DNA of 43,451 bases from Candidatus Vecturithrix granuli (GCA_000739535.1 DF820465.1:620035-663485), one strand, 5' to 3'; shown: positions 4,406-23,335, numbered from the stretch's first letter. Translations and numbers: made by a program. The notes: a model not told the origin generated them from the letters alone.

Positions 4406-6154
4406 TTATTGAACTTCTTCTTTCCTGAGTTGATAGAGCCATTCCGCGCCATCGTCATCCAACGCATTCAGGGCATAGCCTTTCACCCAATCGCGATAAT
4501 GGCGCACGACGGTCGTTTGTGAAATCAACAAACCAATCGCCTCTTCATACCACAGATATTGCAGCTTTTCATAGATTTCGGCGCGTTTGACGGGATCAGG
4601 CTCAGAGATACCAGCGTCAACCAGCTTATCTACTTCCGGATTCGAATAGGCCGATTTGCTGCCGTAATAACCATTACTGTGCATATAGGTATAAGTAAAA
4701 TTATGCGGATCAGGATAATCGGCGGTCCAACCGAGCACCCAGACTGGGTACATCATTTCTTTCGCCGCAACCAGATAATCGCGCCAATCAACTCCGCGAA
4801 CTTCGATCTGGAATTTGGGATTGAGAGCCATGATATTTTCAGCTAACATTAACGCGATTGACTCGCGCAGCAAATTGCCAGTATTGTGCGTAATCGCCAT
4901 TTTAAAGCCTTTTTTCCACACTTGTCCGTCCCAGGCTTTTTTCATGTATTCTGCTGCTTTTTCCAGATCAAACTCATAATATGGGGCTTCGATATGATAC
5001 GGCAACCCTTCAATCACGATGCTGGTAGGCACAAAACTCACGCCCTGCAGAATGTCCTCAGCAAAGGTATCGCGGTCAAAGGCGTGCATAAAGGCTTTAC
5101 GCACATTCACATCTGAGAAGAAATCCGGCGGAATGCCTTCGCCATCCAGTTGGCCGCTGCCAATATTCGGATTCGCCGTCGGATTGACTTTCTGGGTAAA
5201 AGTGACGGTTCCCACGGCTAATTGTGGCACATTCACCTGGACAATCCCAGGCAGATTTGCCATTTCACTGACATATTGTTCCTGCACAGAGACATAATCG
5301 GCGTCGCCGTTCAGTAGCATCAGTTTTCTGGTGCCCCATTCGGCAACCGTTTTCACAATTGCATATTTCAGGGCTGGCTTTGGTCCCCAGTACTCTTCAA
5401 AGCGTTCAAAGACGAATTCTATGGATTTATCCCAGTTTTTCATTTTATATGCGCCCGTGCCGTTCATGATTTCAAACAAGGGCTCTTTACCCGCGGTCGG
5501 ATTGTTAAATTGGGCGGCAGTTTCAGGCTTACCGTCCCAGCAGCCGTGCTCCATCGCCCATTCCTTATCAATGATCGAGGCCCAACCTTTGGTCAAAATC
5601 CCTAAAAGCGGCGGATAAGGTTTGGGAAGATGGAGGATGACCTTGTCGCCGTCAACTTCTACGGAATTCATGATCTTTTCAGTTATCTCAGGAATGAAGT
5701 TGCCATCGGCGTCACGCGTCGTGCCCTCGCCAGTGAGGGCTTCCAACATCATCCACATCGGGCCGCCATCGGGATCAAGGAGCATGTGGCGTTCAAAAGA
5801 ATATTCCACGTCTTCCGGCGTCAAATCGCCGCCCTCATGGAATTTCACGCCTTTTCTGATGATGAACGTATAGGTTTTCCCATCAGCCGAAATTCCGCCA
5901 TTCTCGATGGAAGGAACTTCTGTGGCCAGGCACGGCACAAATTGATCCGTATGAACGCCATCAAAACGGATCAGCGGTTCATACACGTTTTCCACACGTT
6001 GGGCTGAAGTCGTGTCATACGTCACCGCCGGATCAAGCGTGCGAACCGTATTATACACCACTTTAATAAAGGTGTCAGGATTTTTGATTTCAGCGGACGC
6101 AGCCACGCTGAACATGAAAACAAAACAGCAAAGAATACTCCCGAATTTTTTCAT
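4406..6154 (-). CDS. ABC transporter substrate-binding protein, family 5 (paralog)
   Basis: 582 residues and co-linear with the protein at 804-2555 along its whole length (shared YTFxxRKGxKFxxGGDLTPEDVEYS, NVRKAFxHAFDRD, SNGxxG blocks), so the two arose by duplication. Signal peptide: MKKFGSILCCFVF hydrophobic core ending at AASA. AAGGAGTAAAATCATTT precedes the ATG. Its probable role is the same as the paralog's, capturing peptides in the periplasm for an ABC importer; divergence at ligand-facing positions may give it a different specificity. No transporter subunits are nearby. Confidence 0.9.
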   Translation of the reverse strand: MKKFGSILCCFVFMFSVAASAEIKNPDTFIKVVYNTVRTLDPAVTYDTTSAQRVENVYEPLIRFDGVHTDQFVPCLATEVPSIENGGISADGKTYTFIIRKGVKFHEGGDLTPEDVEYSFERHMLLDPDGGPMWMMLEALTGEGTTRDADGNFIPEITEKIMNSVEVDGDKVILHLPKPYPPLLGILTKGWASIIDKEWAMEHGCWDGKPETAAQFNNPTAGKEPLFEIMNGTGAYKMKNWDKSIEFVFERFEEYWGPKPALKYAIVKTVAEWGTRKLMLLNGDADYVSVQEQYVSEMANLPGIVQVNVPQLAVGTVTFTQKVNPTANPNIGSGQLDGEGIPPDFFSDVNVRKAFMHAFDRDTFAEDILQGVSFVPTSIVIEGLPYHIEAPYYEFDLEKAAEYMKKAWDGQVWKKGFKMAITHNTGNLLRESIALMLAENIMALNPKFQIEVRGVDWRDYLVAAKEMMYPVWVLGWTADYPDPHNFTYTYMHSNGYYGSKSAYSNPEVDKLVDAGISEPDPVKRAEIYEKLQYLWYEEAIGLLISQTTVVRHYRDWVKGYALNALDDDGAEWLYQLRKEEVQ

Positions 6155-18838: not shown

Positions 18839-18942
18839 TATTTCTTTTTTAACCTTTTTTGCCGAAAAACTTCTAACTAATGTCTTGTAAACAATAATTC
18901 TAACATTTTATCATTTAGTTTTTCAGAAGGGAGAACAGTTGT
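18839..18942. other. AT-rich leader before the first micro-lipoprotein
   Basis: AT-rich, no ORF. It precedes the 28-codon lipoprotein ORF, whose ribosome site AAGGGAG begins at 18928. No promoter boxes stand out. Confidence 0.4.
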
Positions 18943-19029
18943 ATGCAACGTTTATATATTTTCTTACAAATTCTTTGTGTTCTTTTCATAACCATATTCC
19001 TTTTGGCCGGGTGTACGCCGCTTTATTGA
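18943..19029 (+). CDS. Micro-lipoprotein, 28 residues (candidate)
   Basis: ATG preceded by AAGGGAGAACAGTTGT. The product starts MQRLYIFLQ, has a single hydrophobic stretch and ends in a lipobox LLAGC followed only by TPLY and stop. Cleavage by signal peptidase II would leave a lipidated pentapeptide, C-TPLY. It is far below usual annotation cut-offs. A second ORF of the same design lies at 20784-20855, on the other side of the XRE regulator, which argues against chance. Function unknown; entericidin-like toxic lipoproteins and signal-peptide-derived pheromones are analogies only. Confidence 0.6.
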   Translation: MQRLYIFLQILCVLFITIFLLAGCTPLY

Positions 19030-19236
19030 TTTCAGAATTAGTAAAGCGAAGAAAAGGCAGGGAGAAGAGCGGCGGATCTAATATTCGTTTTTCAATGAAA
19101 TGGATTTTGTAGGTCAAGACAAATGAGTTATTACTATTTTTTCTATAGATATTTTTAACTTTTGTTTTTTGAGGGTGTCTGATGGTCATAGAAATTGTGG
19201 TTGCAAAATAAATAGAGAAGAATGTAAAAAAAATTA
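19030..19236. other. AT-rich sequence upstream of the regulator promoter
   Basis: No convincing gene. Leads into the promoter/operator region of the XRE regulator. With the preceding micro-ORF it makes a nearly 500-base stretch without a conventional gene. Confidence 0.4.
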
Positions 19237-19265
19237 TTGACAGAAAAACGTTTATATATTACATT
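19237..19265 (+). promoter_or_regulatory. Sigma-70-type promoter of the XRE regulator
   Basis: TTGACA (19237-19242), 17-base spacer, TACATT (19260-19265) as -10 box. The -10 box overlaps the first bases of the TTAAC-ATTT-GTTAA palindrome, an arrangement expected for repression. Prediction by pattern only. Confidence 0.6.
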
Positions 19266-19277
19266 AACATTTGTTAA
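19264..19277. promoter_or_regulatory. TTAAC-N4-GTTAA operator candidate, copy 1
   Basis: TTAAC-ATTT-GTTAA, perfect, overlapping the promoter of the XRE gene. Directly after it is a second, related palindrome CTAACTAAC-AGTA-GTTAGTTG (about 19279-19300). Identical half-sites recur at 20016 and 20749. Confidence 0.65.
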
Positions 19278-19334
19278 ACTAACTAACAGTAGTTAGTTGA
19301 AATTGACAGCCTCTAGTCAGGAAAAGGTGACATT

Positions 19335-19925
19335 ATGAAATTCCATGAATTTGTCACGTCAAGACGCGCTAAATTAAATCTGAACAAAAAAGAATTGGCG
19401 AAAAAGGCCAAAATCTCTGATGCGTACATCAAGCACATTGAAGATGGCATTCGCATTCCCAAGGATATGATTATCTTGTATAATCTGGCGGATGCCCTTC
19501 AGGTTGACCGGGAATGGTTTCGCGATTTTGCCTATCTCAATCGTGATCATCAGAAAGCTGTCACCTACATTGATGAAGAAAAAGTGATCCAATCACCGAA
19601 CACAGGAAGTTCATACAATACTGCAAACAGTCTCTCTTCTAAAGAGAAAGAAATCCTGTCGTTGTTTCGAAAAATTGACGAAGAAGACCGTCAGACACTT
19701 CTCAATGTTCTGCAAAAAAATTCATTTTCTGACAGCCTTATTTTTCAGGGGAAGATGTACGATTCCCATCATGCATTATACAAGATCATGAGTGAGATTA
19801 AGGATAAAAATGAGAAATTTCTCAAAAAAATGTTGGACTACATTGTCGCAATGGTATTTATCGAAACTCACGATCAAAAGAGTCCTTTACGAGAACTCCT
19901 GGGAGATATTTTGAACATTCAATAA
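19335..19925 (+). CDS. XRE-family helix-turn-helix regulator
   Basis: 196 residues. Residues 1-65 form a Cro/CI-type HTH (LNKKELAKKAKISDAYIKHIEDGIRIP ... LYNLADALQVD). The remaining part is a charged, helical region without a recognised enzyme domain (SSKEKEILSLFRKIDEEDRQTLLNVL resembles the linker often found in XRE regulators). An AGGAAAAGGTGAC site precedes the ATG. It is flanked by repeated TTAAC-N4-GTTAA sites, so it probably represses itself and the downstream membrane/lipoprotein genes. A hairpin terminator follows it. Confidence 0.88.
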   Translation: MKFHEFVTSRRAKLNLNKKELAKKAKISDAYIKHIEDGIRIPKDMIILYNLADALQVDREWFRDFAYLNRDHQKAVTYIDEEKVIQSPNTGSSYNTANSLSSKEKEILSLFRKIDEEDRQTLLNVLQKNSFSDSLIFQGKMYDSHHALYKIMSEIKDKNEKFLKKMLDYIVAMVFIETHDQKSPLRELLGDILNIQ

Positions 19926-19938
19926 CAATCAGAGATTT

Positions 19939-19972
19939 AAAAAACCGAGTTTTGAAAAACTCGGTTTTTTTT
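19939..19972 (+). terminator. Rho-independent terminator after the XRE regulator
   Basis: AAAAACCGAGTTTT-GAAA-AACTCGGTTTTTTTT: GC-containing stem followed by an eight-T run, 14 bases after the stop codon. Same CCGAGTTT family as at 761 and 35527. Confidence 0.85.
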
Positions 19973-20003
19973 AGTGTAAATGTGATTATGAAAAAATTTT
20001 TTG

Positions 20004-20032
20004 TTGACAAAATATTTAACGTATGTTAATAT
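20004..20032 (+). promoter_or_regulatory. Promoter with operator in the spacer, upstream of the membrane-protein gene
   Basis: TTGACA (20004-20009), 17-base spacer and TAATAT (20027-20032). The palindrome TTAAC-GTAT-GTTAA (20016-20029) fills the spacer and overlaps the -10 box, so bound repressor would block polymerase. Confidence 0.65.
20016..20029. promoter_or_regulatory. TTAAC-N4-GTTAA operator candidate, copy 2
   Basis: TTAAC-GTAT-GTTAA, perfect 5+4+5 palindrome inside the promoter of the four-TM gene; same half-sites and spacing as copies 1 and 3. Confidence 0.65.
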
Positions 20033-20099
20033 ATTTTTTGTATAAAGAATAATTTTCACTCATTCATTTTGTTCAGATATTCGATAAATAGGCTTAATA

Positions 20100-20531
20100 G
20101 TGTCATATAACGTCATGCGGCATCTTTATGAAATTCTTACAAAATATGAAGCAGTTTATTTATTTTATCTGGTACCGATCGCCTATTTTATGTCGATTGT
20201 CGCCAGGTTGATCTATTATAAATTAAAATATCACCAAAAATTGTCTTATGGCGATGTGATGGCCGCAGCGACAATGCTCATTATCGGAGTAGATTATGTG
20301 AATTATTTGTACCTCCTTATTAGCGGAACCGGAAAGGTTTTGCCATTGGCGGCATTTTTGATTAAATATACCTTTGGGTTTTTATTGTGGACATGGATGT
20401 TCTGGTATAGTTATAAGGTACATATACAACGAAATTTAGTAGACCATCACATCAAGAAAGGGCACGTGATTCTCATTTGCGTCATTTCAATGCTGTTTAT
20501 TCTTCTGGTAATTGGGATTGTGGTTTCATAG
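20100..20531 (+). CDS. Small integral membrane protein, four predicted TM segments
   Basis: 143 residues from a GTG start, or 138 from the ATG at 20115; neither has a strong ribosome site. Four hydrophobic segments are visible at about 19-40 (YLFYLVPIAYFMSIVARL), 54-77, 82-105 and 123-142. I do not recognise a family. It is preceded by its own promoter containing the TTAAC-N4-GTTAA site and followed by the micro-ORF region, suggesting joint control with the XRE regulator. Inner-membrane location is expected. Confidence 0.7.
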   Translation: MSYNVMRHLYEILTKYEAVYLFYLVPIAYFMSIVARLIYYKLKYHQKLSYGDVMAAATMLIIGVDYVNYLYLLISGTGKVLPLAAFLIKYTFGFLLWTWMFWYSYKVHIQRNLVDHHIKKGHVILICVISMLFILLVIGIVVS

Positions 20532-20589
20532 TGAGGAGTGTATATTTTTTTGTTAATAAAATATATAAACGTTAATCAAAATAAAATAT

Positions 20590-20655
20590 ATGAATTACAT
20601 AGGTTTGTTTATCATATTTCTCTCTTTTATCTCTGTAGCTTGGCGATTATTTTGA
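20590..20655 (+). CDS. Hydrophobic micro-ORF, 21 residues (weak)
   Basis: ATG frame encoding MNYIGLFIIFLSFISVAWRLF, a single membrane-type helix. No Shine-Dalgarno upstream, only AT-rich sequence with GTTAAT half-sites at 20552 and 20571. It could be chance in AT-rich DNA; listed because the region has several similar small frames. Confidence 0.2.
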   Translation: MNYIGLFIIFLSFISVAWRLF

Positions 20656-20671
20656 AAGAAAAGGAGATACA

Positions 20672-20728
20672 ATGGCAGTTTTTCAGAGGATTTCGAGTTT
20701 TCGAAGGGTAGATGTGACAGGAGTGTAG
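20672..20728 (+). CDS. Micro-ORF, 18 residues, with strong ribosome site (weak)
   Basis: AAGGAG lies seven bases upstream of ATG; the product is basic (MAVFQRISSFRRVDVTGV). A leader peptide for the following lipoprotein ORF is possible. Only the ribosome site supports it. Confidence 0.25.
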   Translation: MAVFQRISSFRRVDVTGV

Positions 20729-20748
20729 ATATTTTTTTCTGCAATCAA

Positions 20749-20762
20749 TTAACTTACGTTAA
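20749..20762. promoter_or_regulatory. TTAAC-N4-GTTAA operator candidate, copy 3
   Basis: TTAAC-TTAC-GTTAA, perfect, only nine bases before the AAGGAG ribosome site of the 23-residue lipoprotein ORF. Same half-sites and spacing as at 19264 and 20016. Confidence 0.6.
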
Positions 20763-20783
20763 TTACTCATAAGGAGAATAACC

Positions 20784-20855
20784 ATGTTATACTATTGGAT
20801 GATTGTTGTCTTATCGGTTATAATCATGCTGTTAACAGGATGTACTCCGTATTAA
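20784..20855 (+). CDS. Micro-lipoprotein, 23 residues (candidate)
   Basis: AAGGAGAATAACC precedes the ATG, a near-ideal ribosome site. The product runs MLYYWMIVVLSVIIM, then lipobox LLTGC, then only TPY and stop, so the mature form would be a lipidated tetrapeptide. It shares the design and the CTP..Y tail with the ORF at 18943-19029. An operator candidate lies just upstream. Not explained by a truncated larger gene: the frame after the stop is not coding. Function unknown. Confidence 0.65.
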   Translation: MLYYWMIVVLSVIIMLLTGCTPY

Positions 20856-21007
20856 AAACATACGTGTAACAAAACGATAACGATTTACTGCTACAGCATC
20901 AATTGTCAACGTAAGAGGGGTATGAACAACATGCCCCATGTTCGAAAAAGGTGAAGCGTCATAAAAATTGTTAGAGCATAATCTTACGCTGATCGTTGAA
21001 AAGAGAT
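20856..21007. other. Leader of the ATPase gene
   Basis: No gene. A small hairpin-prone segment (GGGGTATG...CATGCCCC, about 20917-20937) lies here; a nine-codon ATG frame at about 20922 is too short to judge. No TTAAC-N4-GTTAA site. Confidence 0.4.
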
Positions 21008-23335
21008 ATGAAACTCATAAAAACAACTCAATTATTTTCATTGTGCAAGATGCTTGTACTGATGTTTTTCCTCTTAAATTTGAGTAGCGCGCTATGGGGG
21101 TTTGTGTACTCTGATCCTCAGCCTGGCCGCCTTTTCCCATCAACATCATCTCAAGCTGATGACTCCGTTAAAGGGATGCTGACGCATCTCAAACATGTGC
21201 TTTCATACCAATTTCTTCCTTTGGCAGAAGGTGATGAATCAACCCCGATCTCCTTTGAACAAGATACCGACCAGGGCCCCCAGACCACCGATCATTCGTT
21301 GTTGATTCAGATCGCTCGTTCCTATAATACTTTTGAACAGAGGAATCTGACACCTTCATCTCCTGGCAAGATCTTAACCAGATTCCCAGGAATCACAAAA
21401 CAGATTCAACTTCTTTTGATTGGCGGGGTGTTGCTGACAATCGGCACCATTTTTATTCCTACGTTCTTACCTCAACTCCATCAACATCCCGCAAAAATTT
21501 TTCGTGCGTTTCACCGATCACATTCTCAGCATTCAGCGGAAATCCGGCAAAAAAAACGCCGGAGGTCGTATGCCTCTCTGAGGCTCACGGATTCTGCAGT
21601 AGCCGAAAGGCTGCTTCGAACGAAAATCTCTACGCAGCAACAAGAGCGTATTTCCGATACTGTTGACGCAGAAAAAGACTGTTTGGAAGAAATTTGGGAA
21701 TTGGAAGAATATGATATGAATCGGAATAATCATGAAATGATCTCTTCACCTTCTGTGTCCCAGAAACCTTTTGATGCTCCCGAAAACACGATACGCACAT
21801 TTTTTCAACAAAGCGGATTTGAATTTGTCTCTCAGAACAATAATCATCAGGTACTTCATGCGACACATATTCCTTATAATCGTTATGGTGCCATTCCTCT
21901 TTTTATCATGACAGATACTGTGCTCGATGCTTCAGCCATTCAACAAATTTGCGCTGCGATAGCTCCTCGAAATGATTCGAACACCCTCCAACTAGCGTTT
22001 ATCATTGTTGATACGATCCCCTCTTCTGACGCATATACGTCCATTTATACATGTAAATCGCAGACTAATATGCTGTTGATTCCTATCGCAATTCAGTTGA
22101 TAAACAAAGCCTTACGACAAAGAACCCCCGCCCACATCTTGGAAAAATTGCTCAGTACCGCTTTAAAAGGGAACAATCTGTATGATACAAATACACCTGT
22201 GGAAAATCCCTTAGATTTTTTTGGACGTGAAGATATGATCAATACCTTACTTGATGCCGTGAGCCGTTTACAACATATCGGATTATTCGGACTTCGAAAA
22301 ATTGGAAAAACCTCAATGATCTGGCAGGTTCGAGAAAAGCTTGCGCGTCATATTGTCGCCTACATTGATCTACAACACATTTCCCAGGAGCTTTCCTCGG
22401 TCTATCAAGCCATTCTCGCAGAGTGTCTTCGAGAAGCGTCGTATAAATATCCCGAAGTGATCCTACCAGATTTCAGCCTTTTGGCGCAAGAAGTCGCGAG
22501 CGATCCAGGCGCACAACTTGGACAGATGCTTGTCAGCCTGTGGGAATGTCTGAAACCCTGCTGCCATGATCTGAAAATCATTATCTTGTTTGATGAAGCT
22601 GAACACCTGATTCCGGCAGTGCGAGATTCCTTACCCGGATTTTCAGGATTTCATCAATTGGTTGGAACCATTCGAGGTATTTCCCAACAATATGGTTTTC
22701 TCGTGTCGCTAATGGTGTCTTCGAGTCCGGATATTTCACGCATCGATACCTGGAAAGGACAAAATAATCCGGGGTTTCAGTATTATAAAGAAGTGTTTGT
22801 CTCAACGCTTTCTGAAGAGGAATGTAATCGTATGATTACGACACTTGGCATTCAGGTCGGTTTAAGATATACTGAAGAGTCATTATCCAGAATTTATTAT
22901 GAAACCGGCGGGCATCCTTATGTCACACGGCAATTGTGCAGCCTCATTGTAAAAAAATTACTGAATAATCAGGCTGCTCATGCCCGGCATACTTCAAAGA
23001 TGAAAGAAAATTCCGACCTATGCGATACGTCCTTTCTTGTTGAAGTGAAAGATGTTGAATATGCGGTCTCTGAGTATCTGGAATACAAGCGTGATTATCT
23101 TGAAAGTATTTGGCAGCGACTTCCGCAAACAGAACAAGAAATTCTCCTGATTATCATAAAAAACGAGAGCTGTGCGCTCGATGATCTGATTGCCAGGCAT
23201 CACAGCCATCAGATCAAACGAGAACGCAGAAAGGTGATATCAACATTAATAGAAAATGAAATCATCGAGAAATGTGAAAACAAATATTCGATTAGAATGG
23301 GCTTGTTTGCACGATACCTTTTGACAACCAACTAA
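21008..23335 (+). CDS. Membrane-anchored STAND/AAA-like ATPase
   Basis: About 775 residues. An N-terminal hydrophobic segment (about 12-37) and a second at about 130-155 (IQLLLIGGVLLTIGTIFIP) enclose a presumably periplasmic part, leaving the rest in the cytoplasm. Next comes a globular domain with AFIIVDTIPSSDAYTS and NMLLIPIAIQLINKAL, then NPLDFFGREDMI, Walker A GLRKIGKTS at about 430 and Walker B IIILFDEAEHLIP at about 530. The C terminus looks like a winged helix. This architecture matches signalling/conflict NTPases of the STAND type. A TTG 12 bases upstream is an alternative start. Partner and trigger unknown; its location beside the XRE/lipoprotein genes suggests a common system. Confidence 0.8.
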   Translation: MKLIKTTQLFSLCKMLVLMFFLLNLSSALWGFVYSDPQPGRLFPSTSSQADDSVKGMLTHLKHVLSYQFLPLAEGDESTPISFEQDTDQGPQTTDHSLLIQIARSYNTFEQRNLTPSSPGKILTRFPGITKQIQLLLIGGVLLTIGTIFIPTFLPQLHQHPAKIFRAFHRSHSQHSAEIRQKKRRRSYASLRLTDSAVAERLLRTKISTQQQERISDTVDAEKDCLEEIWELEEYDMNRNNHEMISSPSVSQKPFDAPENTIRTFFQQSGFEFVSQNNNHQVLHATHIPYNRYGAIPLFIMTDTVLDASAIQQICAAIAPRNDSNTLQLAFIIVDTIPSSDAYTSIYTCKSQTNMLLIPIAIQLINKALRQRTPAHILEKLLSTALKGNNLYDTNTPVENPLDFFGREDMINTLLDAVSRLQHIGLFGLRKIGKTSMIWQVREKLARHIVAYIDLQHISQELSSVYQAILAECLREASYKYPEVILPDFSLLAQEVASDPGAQLGQMLVSLWECLKPCCHDLKIIILFDEAEHLIPAVRDSLPGFSGFHQLVGTIRGISQQYGFLVSLMVSSSPDISRIDTWKGQNNPGFQYYKEVFVSTLSEEECNRMITTLGIQVGLRYTEESLSRIYYETGGHPYVTRQLCSLIVKKLLNNQAAHARHTSKMKENSDLCDTSFLVEVKDVEYAVSEYLEYKRDYLESIWQRLPQTEQEILLIIIKNESCALDDLIARHHSHQIKRERRKVISTLIENEIIEKCENKYSIRMGLFARYLLTTN

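Follow-up and report, generated by a model that had tools for sequence, protein, structure and literature searches.

To our knowledge, the typical small lipoproteins of bacteria have tens of mature residues. Colicin lysis and bacteriocin release proteins are small lipoproteins under the control of a repressor, and enterococcal pheromones derive from lipoprotein signal peptides. The entericidin Atu8019 has a mature part of 32 residues (PMC7296081), and LptM one of about 48, of which the N-terminal part next to the lipidated cysteine contacts LptD (PMC10567701). Rgg-SHP systems exist as well (PMC3150281, PMC9765709), and RRNPP systems have been described in Firmicutes (PMC9765709). Among the open-access papers that we searched for very small bacterial lipoproteins, none describes one comparably short to those considered here.

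KSB3 is a little-studied, filament-forming bacterial phylum, of which we know no cultivated members. Here we analyse a stretch of 43,451 nucleotides from Candidatus Vecturithrix granuli (the window), for which a preliminary description had reported two micro-lipoprotein frames around an XRE regulator gene. Its statement that known small lipoproteins are longer after the cysteine agrees with the sizes cited above.

Results

Direct reading of the window reproduced both frames as described, with 28 and 23 codons, a ribosome site, a lipobox and a TPLY or TPY end. ORF1 (18943-19029, plus strand) encodes a 28-residue micro-lipoprotein, MQRLYIFLQILCVLFITIFLLAGC-TPLY, with the predicted mature pentapeptide CTPLY, and ORF2 (20784-20855, plus strand) one of 23 residues, MLYYWMIVVLSVIIMLLTGC-TPY, with the predicted mature tetrapeptide CTPY. 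The ribosome site of ORF1 is AAGGGAG (18927-18933, plus strand), and that of ORF2, read directly and from an alignment with a related genome, AAGGAG (20771-20776, plus strand). In both, the lipobox (LLAGC in ORF1, LLTGC in ORF2) follows a hydrophobic run near the N-terminus. Neither frame has a meaningful match in Pfam, NCBIfam or PHROGs, nor do they match the entericidin family model (Pfam at E 0.1; NCBIfam) or the LptM profile PF13627 (Pfam, NCBIfam), and for all these searches such short queries limit the power. A possible sigma-70-like promoter lies upstream of ORF1 (18885-18914, plus strand), with 9 of 12 consensus positions and no operator-type TTAAC site at this region; this candidate is weak, as its score is no better than the shuffle rate.

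The two frames do bracket the XRE gene, as had been claimed, although that picture was incomplete: the gene of a 143-residue membrane protein also lies between them, as does an operator, both of which had been missed. The XRE-type regulator (19335-19925, plus strand; 196 residues) carries an HTH_3 domain (Pfam, 4.8e-8) and has weak DicA- and RstR-like matches. Its C-terminal part of about 110 residues, of unknown fold, is short for a TPR array and has no TPR match in Pfam, and the structure model of this part is unreliable (block means of pLDDT 31-54). The gene is followed by a likely terminator (19943-19971, plus strand), an inverted repeat with a T-run that was read directly and is not listed by the scan that gave the putative promoters. 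The small membrane protein (20100-20531, plus strand; alternative start ATG at 20115) has predicted long helices; searches of Pfam, NCBIfam and PHROGs gave no match to it, and its structure model (pLDDT 68) has no PDB match below E 1. Downstream of ORF2 lies an AAA/STAND-like ATPase gene (20996-23335, plus strand) with a weak AAA_16 match, the product of which has a signal-like start and a second hydrophobic segment before the weak AAA/STAND domain. A 21-residue hydrophobic frame, MNYIGLFIIFLSFISVAWRLF (20590-20655), following a AACGTTAAT half-site, was discarded, since the alignment showed it not to be conserved in the related genome G001.

How often would frames of this design arise by chance? 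Our strict scan demanded a ribosome site, a start codon, a hydrophobic run without charged residues, a lipobox and a tail of no more than eight residues up to the stop. In the window it returned exactly two frames, ORF1 and ORF2. It returned none in a 400-kb sample drawn from 20 other places of the source genome (G000; 8.38 Mb in 21 contigs) to estimate the genome-wide background, none in 60 randomised windows, and a single one in Markov-random sequence totalling 2 Mb. Across the 8.38 Mb, the tail pattern has six matches at the DNA level, of which two form such frames, again ORF1 and ORF2. We also searched a panel of 385 genomes from about 260 families for a ribosome site and ATG followed by 40-70 bases and [G/A]CTPY-stop, and found two matches, the ORF2 loci of G000 and of a relative, G001; the corresponding pattern with 42-72 bases and [G/A]CTPLY-stop matched only the ORF1 loci of these same two genomes. 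The earlier view that coincidence is unlikely is thereby borne out: the design is far rarer in background and random sequence than the preliminary description's refuting case, frames as common as in shuffled sequence, would have it, and it is conserved in relatives.

This conservation was traced in three relatives, all of the KSB3 group: G001 represents another genus of the same family as G000, and G002 and G003 belong to another family. In G001, MQRMFTAIRSIVYSLALLVLLVGC-TPLY lies upstream and MRYYWMFIAVAIILTLLSGC-TPY downstream of its XRE gene, at the same places as in G000, with AAGGAGG where ORF1 has AAGGGAG. Within the equivalent cassette, G002 and G003 have MRARYLLLLVGLILILSGC-TPYVPW and MRTTYLLLLICLILILSGC-TPYVPW, with the tail CTPYVPW; ORF1 is found in G000 and G001 only, and the ORF2 type alone reaches the other family. 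The lipoboxes of the relatives' copies read LLVGC, LLSGC and ILSGC, and an arginine in the n-region is present in ORF1, both G001 frames and the copies of G002 and G003; ORF2 of the window (MLYYW) has neither lysine nor arginine there. The search of related genomes that had been proposed therefore did find such frames, with tail, lipobox and ribosome site all kept, and the proposed ground for refutation, a lack of conservation in close relatives, fell away with both frames present in G001 and the CTPYVPW form in G002 and G003.

The pattern of substitution points to the peptide itself. Three ortholog pairs, compared over the tail codons and the stop, show eight nucleotide differences, and all eight are synonymous. 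The part upstream of the tail shows 9 synonymous and 31 amino-acid-changing differences over the same pairs, and if an equal number of substitutions is placed at random, all three tails remain unchanged with a probability of about 3e-6. As the tails differ only synonymously and the upstream part drifts, the target of selection is the peptide Cys-Thr-Pro-(Leu)-Tyr and, ahead of it, hydrophobicity rather than sequence. Between G000 and G001, identity in the intergenic DNA surrounding ORF2 is no higher than about 50%, except for the operator and the ORF. Taken together, these comparisons indicate that ORF1 and ORF2 are real, conserved genes, a stronger finding than was first stated. Another very short conserved frame, MDKTIFYLMVVIVVACKIMELIQYFK, with a close variant, was seen in G002 and G003 (L017:7484, plus strand; L018:11588, minus strand); it is hydrophobic, does not encode a lipoprotein, and lies near the micro-lipoprotein on the opposite strand.

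The neighbouring genes are conserved to a different extent. The XRE ortholog of G001 is 81% identical, and a profile of the membrane protein finds relatives in the four KSB3-group genomes only, among the 385, and none in the viral contigs, plasmids or phages searched. In G002 and G003, the XRE gene, the membrane-protein gene and the CTPY-type lipoprotein gene stay together, with all surrounding genes different. The ATPase gene is at the same place in G001 and absent from G002 and G003, and its link to the cassette is uncertain. A paralog of the membrane protein, 37% identical, is encoded elsewhere in the source genome (L047:9672-10091, minus strand; G000:C20), with neither a micro-lipoprotein nor an XRE gene beside it. 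A divergent multi-helix membrane protein next to a distant, weak XRE homolog (L048:5766-6902; G000:C20, about 32 kb) was set aside as a likeness of layout only, having no profile similarity to the cassette membrane protein.

An operator-like palindrome, TTAACNNNNGTTAA, occurs three times without mismatch in the 43-kb window, at 19264, 20016 and 20749, and thus once each at the XRE gene, the membrane-protein gene and ORF2. The first, TTAACATTTGTTAA (19264-19277, plus strand), lies at the -10 and start of a putative XRE promoter (TTGACA-17-TACATT; 19237-19265, plus strand) and is followed by a second, related palindrome, CTAACAGTAGTTAG (19283-19296, plus strand). At the membrane-protein gene, TTAACGTATGTTAA (20016-20029, plus strand) lies in the spacer and -10 of a putative promoter (TTGACA-17-TAATAT, with TG before the -10; 20004-20032, plus strand), a place that it also has in G001-G003. 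The third, TTAACTTACGTTAA (20749-20762, plus strand), lies upstream of ORF2 and is identical in G001. G001 has sites at equivalent places, as do G002 and G003 at their membrane-protein and lipoprotein genes; we found no perfect site upstream of the cassette XRE genes of G002 and G003. Of the A/T-flanked form, WTTAACNNNNGTTAAW, there are four copies in the 8.38 Mb of G000, three of these at the cassette, and two in G001, both at the cassette. In G000, WTTAAC sites are no more numerous than matches to a reversed-pattern control, and what stands out is how they cluster, four random sites being expected to give about 0.002 pairs within 1.5 kb. The regulator thus combines an HTH_3 domain with a palindromic site at its own putative promoter, as is the case in XRE-type autoregulation, and since the site overlaps the -10 region of both promoters, it would imply a repressor that also represses itself, with binding predicted.

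The fourth WTTAACNNNNGTTAAW site of G000, with a near-copy beside it, precedes a small ORF and a gene of the NB-ARC/TPR (STAND) type (L047:14444-17466; G000:C20, about 64.4 kb), and may belong to the same regulon as the cassette. WTTAAC sites elsewhere in G002 and G003 were rejected as a regulon, being in or near unrelated genes without micro-lipoproteins.

Genes for Lgt (PF01790) and LspA (PF01252) are present in all four KSB3-group genomes, which makes processing to Cys-Thr-Pro-(Leu)-Tyr plausible. Every copy retains the lipobox, and the simplest reading, a plausible one, is that the products would be processed to acylated CTPLY, CTPY or CTPYVPW. Each of the four genomes has two genes for Lgt, the prolipoprotein diacylglyceryl transferase (in the source genome at G000:C18:110076 and C20:494338).

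Matches to the two tail patterns in viral contigs numbered 22, of which 21 are not micro-lipoproteins. The one that fits, MKYIYWFVFVFVVFVILFMNSGCTPY, is on a large phage-type contig (L079; IMGVR_UViG_3300042731_007944; minus strand, about 5170-5263), where MKYIYWFVFVFVVFVILFMNSGC-TPY, preceded by a strong GAGGAGG ribosome site, is packed tightly between two genes. Its lipobox is imperfect, with asparagine at -3; no copy of the membrane protein was detected in this contig, and the search for a relative to compare conservation with gave none. We take it as a lead only that this frame could be a phage-encoded copy of the design.

Discussion

What is new here is that the XRE regulator appears to be part of a cassette, with a membrane protein and a shared operator-like palindrome. 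We propose that we are dealing with a chromosomal envelope cassette controlled by an autorepressor of the XRE type, which would bind TTAAC-N4-GTTAA at its own promoter, at that of the gene for the small, presumably inner-membrane protein, and just upstream of ORF2. Once a signal lifts repression, the membrane protein and the ORF2 pre-lipopeptide would be made, Lgt would add lipid to the cysteine, and LspA would remove the hydrophobic part, leaving acylated Cys-Thr-Pro-Tyr in the membrane. ORF1 would supply the sister peptide Cys-Thr-Pro-Leu-Tyr from a promoter without an operator, which could make ORF1 the constant form and ORF2 the inducible one. The working part would be the conserved tail and not the signal peptide, and it would most probably act on an envelope protein, as a lipid-anchored ligand or plug. 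The first candidate for this partner is the co-regulated membrane protein; only co-regulation points to it, because it belongs to no recognisable family and its structure model is of low quality. Under the sorting rule of E. coli, threonine after the cysteine would not hold the peptide in the inner membrane. We give this XRE-repressed cassette, with a lipid-anchored tetrapeptide, a membrane protein and a related lipopeptide outside operator control, about an even chance of being correct. Several points count against it: the cassette XRE genes of G002 and G003 have no perfect upstream site, WTTAAC sites are no commoner than the control pattern, and both frames together are conserved in one other genus only. 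A chain of 23-28 residues would also be too short to span the ribosome tunnel, and could only be exported post-translationally.

Could the locus instead be a signalling system like Rgg-SHP or PrgX-cCF10, in which a cut fragment of the exported signal peptide re-enters the cell and binds the adjacent XRE protein? The placement of an XRE regulator beside short hydrophobic, lipoprotein-like precursors fits this, as does the origin of enterococcal pheromones. Such a pheromone predicts that the signal peptide is conserved, and the opposite is seen, with 31 amino-acid changes there and a fixed tail after the cysteine; the hint at pheromones in the preliminary description is weakened accordingly. As the C-terminal part of the regulator is also short for a TPR array, and RRNPP systems are described from Firmicutes, we consider this reading unlikely. 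Slightly less unlikely is a membrane-active or lysis peptide, in the manner of colicin lysis lipoproteins, entericidins or small hydrophobic toxins, held under a phage-like repressor and with the membrane protein as a holin-like partner or protector. The weak phage-type matches of the regulator, the operators over promoters, and the combination of tiny hydrophobic products with a multi-helix membrane protein would all suit it. However, ORF1 stands outside operator control, the mature part of entericidin-type proteins is long, and the sequences searched gave the membrane protein no context in phages or plasmids; here, as for the LptM-like reading below, profile matches are missing in Pfam and NCBIfam.

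A leader or arrest peptide, in which stalling at the Pro-Tyr end controls a downstream gene by attenuation or by export monitoring as in SecM and VemP, would account for a signal peptide with a short, conserved, proline-containing end directly before the stop, and for the place of ORF2 upstream of the ATPase gene in two genera. Such a peptide needs a downstream gene, and in G002 and G003 there is none nearby on the same strand, the next gene being convergent, so that it fits less well. ORF1, moreover, is about 300 bp from an XRE gene that has a putative promoter of its own, and the lipobox, for which stalling has no use, is retained; we regard this reading as improbable. We hold to much the same degree of doubt an LptM-like maturation factor, a minimal lipoprotein the anchored tail of which enters an outer-membrane machine, for instance LptDE. 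It gains from the contact that LptM makes next to its lipidated cysteine, from Lpt-type genes about 5 kb away in our reading of the translations, and from a Pro-Leu-Tyr stretch in LptM that we presume to resemble CTPLY. Against it, the ORF2-type tails lack leucine, and co-regulation with the XRE and membrane-protein genes is left unexplained. Finally, the frames are very short and few genomes are available, which leaves some room for chance frames or non-coding regulatory DNA. Conservation in frame, tails that change synonymously only, and surrounding intergenic DNA of such low identity already strongly disfavour this last reading, the least probable of those considered.

The envelope cassette is therefore the reading we retain. 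Should its products be formed as we predict, functional lipoproteins would reach down to four residues, below the size limit known so far, and a lipid joined to a short peptide would qualify as a gene product under selection. In its widest form, the proposal is that these are genes whose only lasting product is lipid-anchored Cys-Thr-Pro-(Leu)-Tyr, which would make them the shortest genetically encoded lipoproteins known, acting as regulated envelope ligands or signals in KSB3 and possibly with a phage copy too; we put this forward tentatively, at somewhat below an even chance. Micro-lipoprotein genes fall below normal annotation limits, and similar ones may thus have escaped notice elsewhere. 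For KSB3, the cassette provides a defined regulon candidate together with a predicted operator, and it is compact, comprising one regulator, one membrane protein and one or two lipopeptides, such that it could be moved to E. coli and tested directly.

How, then, do these frames compare to the systems already described? Judged by their sequences, they are probably a kind of bacterial lipoprotein, for which we can only propose a function. With the lipoproteins of the Lgt/LspA pathway they share a short N-terminus, a hydrophobic run, the lipobox L-[AT]-G-C and encoded processing enzymes, and they differ in a mature part of 4-5 (or 7) residues and, for ORF2 of the window, in the absence of lysine or arginine from the n-region. 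Colicin lysis proteins, for their part, have a longer mature part, are under SOS control, and reside on plasmids with a colicin gene. Entericidins (EcnA/B, Atu8019) are likewise very small lipoproteins of diderm envelopes, but with a far longer mature part (PMC7296081), a different tail and no sequence match. LptM (YifL, PF13627) is also a small lipoprotein in which the residues that immediately follow the cysteine are conserved, whereas its mature part was modelled as residues 20-67 (PMC10567701), its tail differs, and there is no profile match. Like the RRNPP regulators, the cassette pairs an XRE-type HTH regulator with very short hydrophobic precursor genes; unlike them, it belongs to another phylum, its regulator has no recognised TPR domain, and the part that is conserved is the tail after the cysteine.
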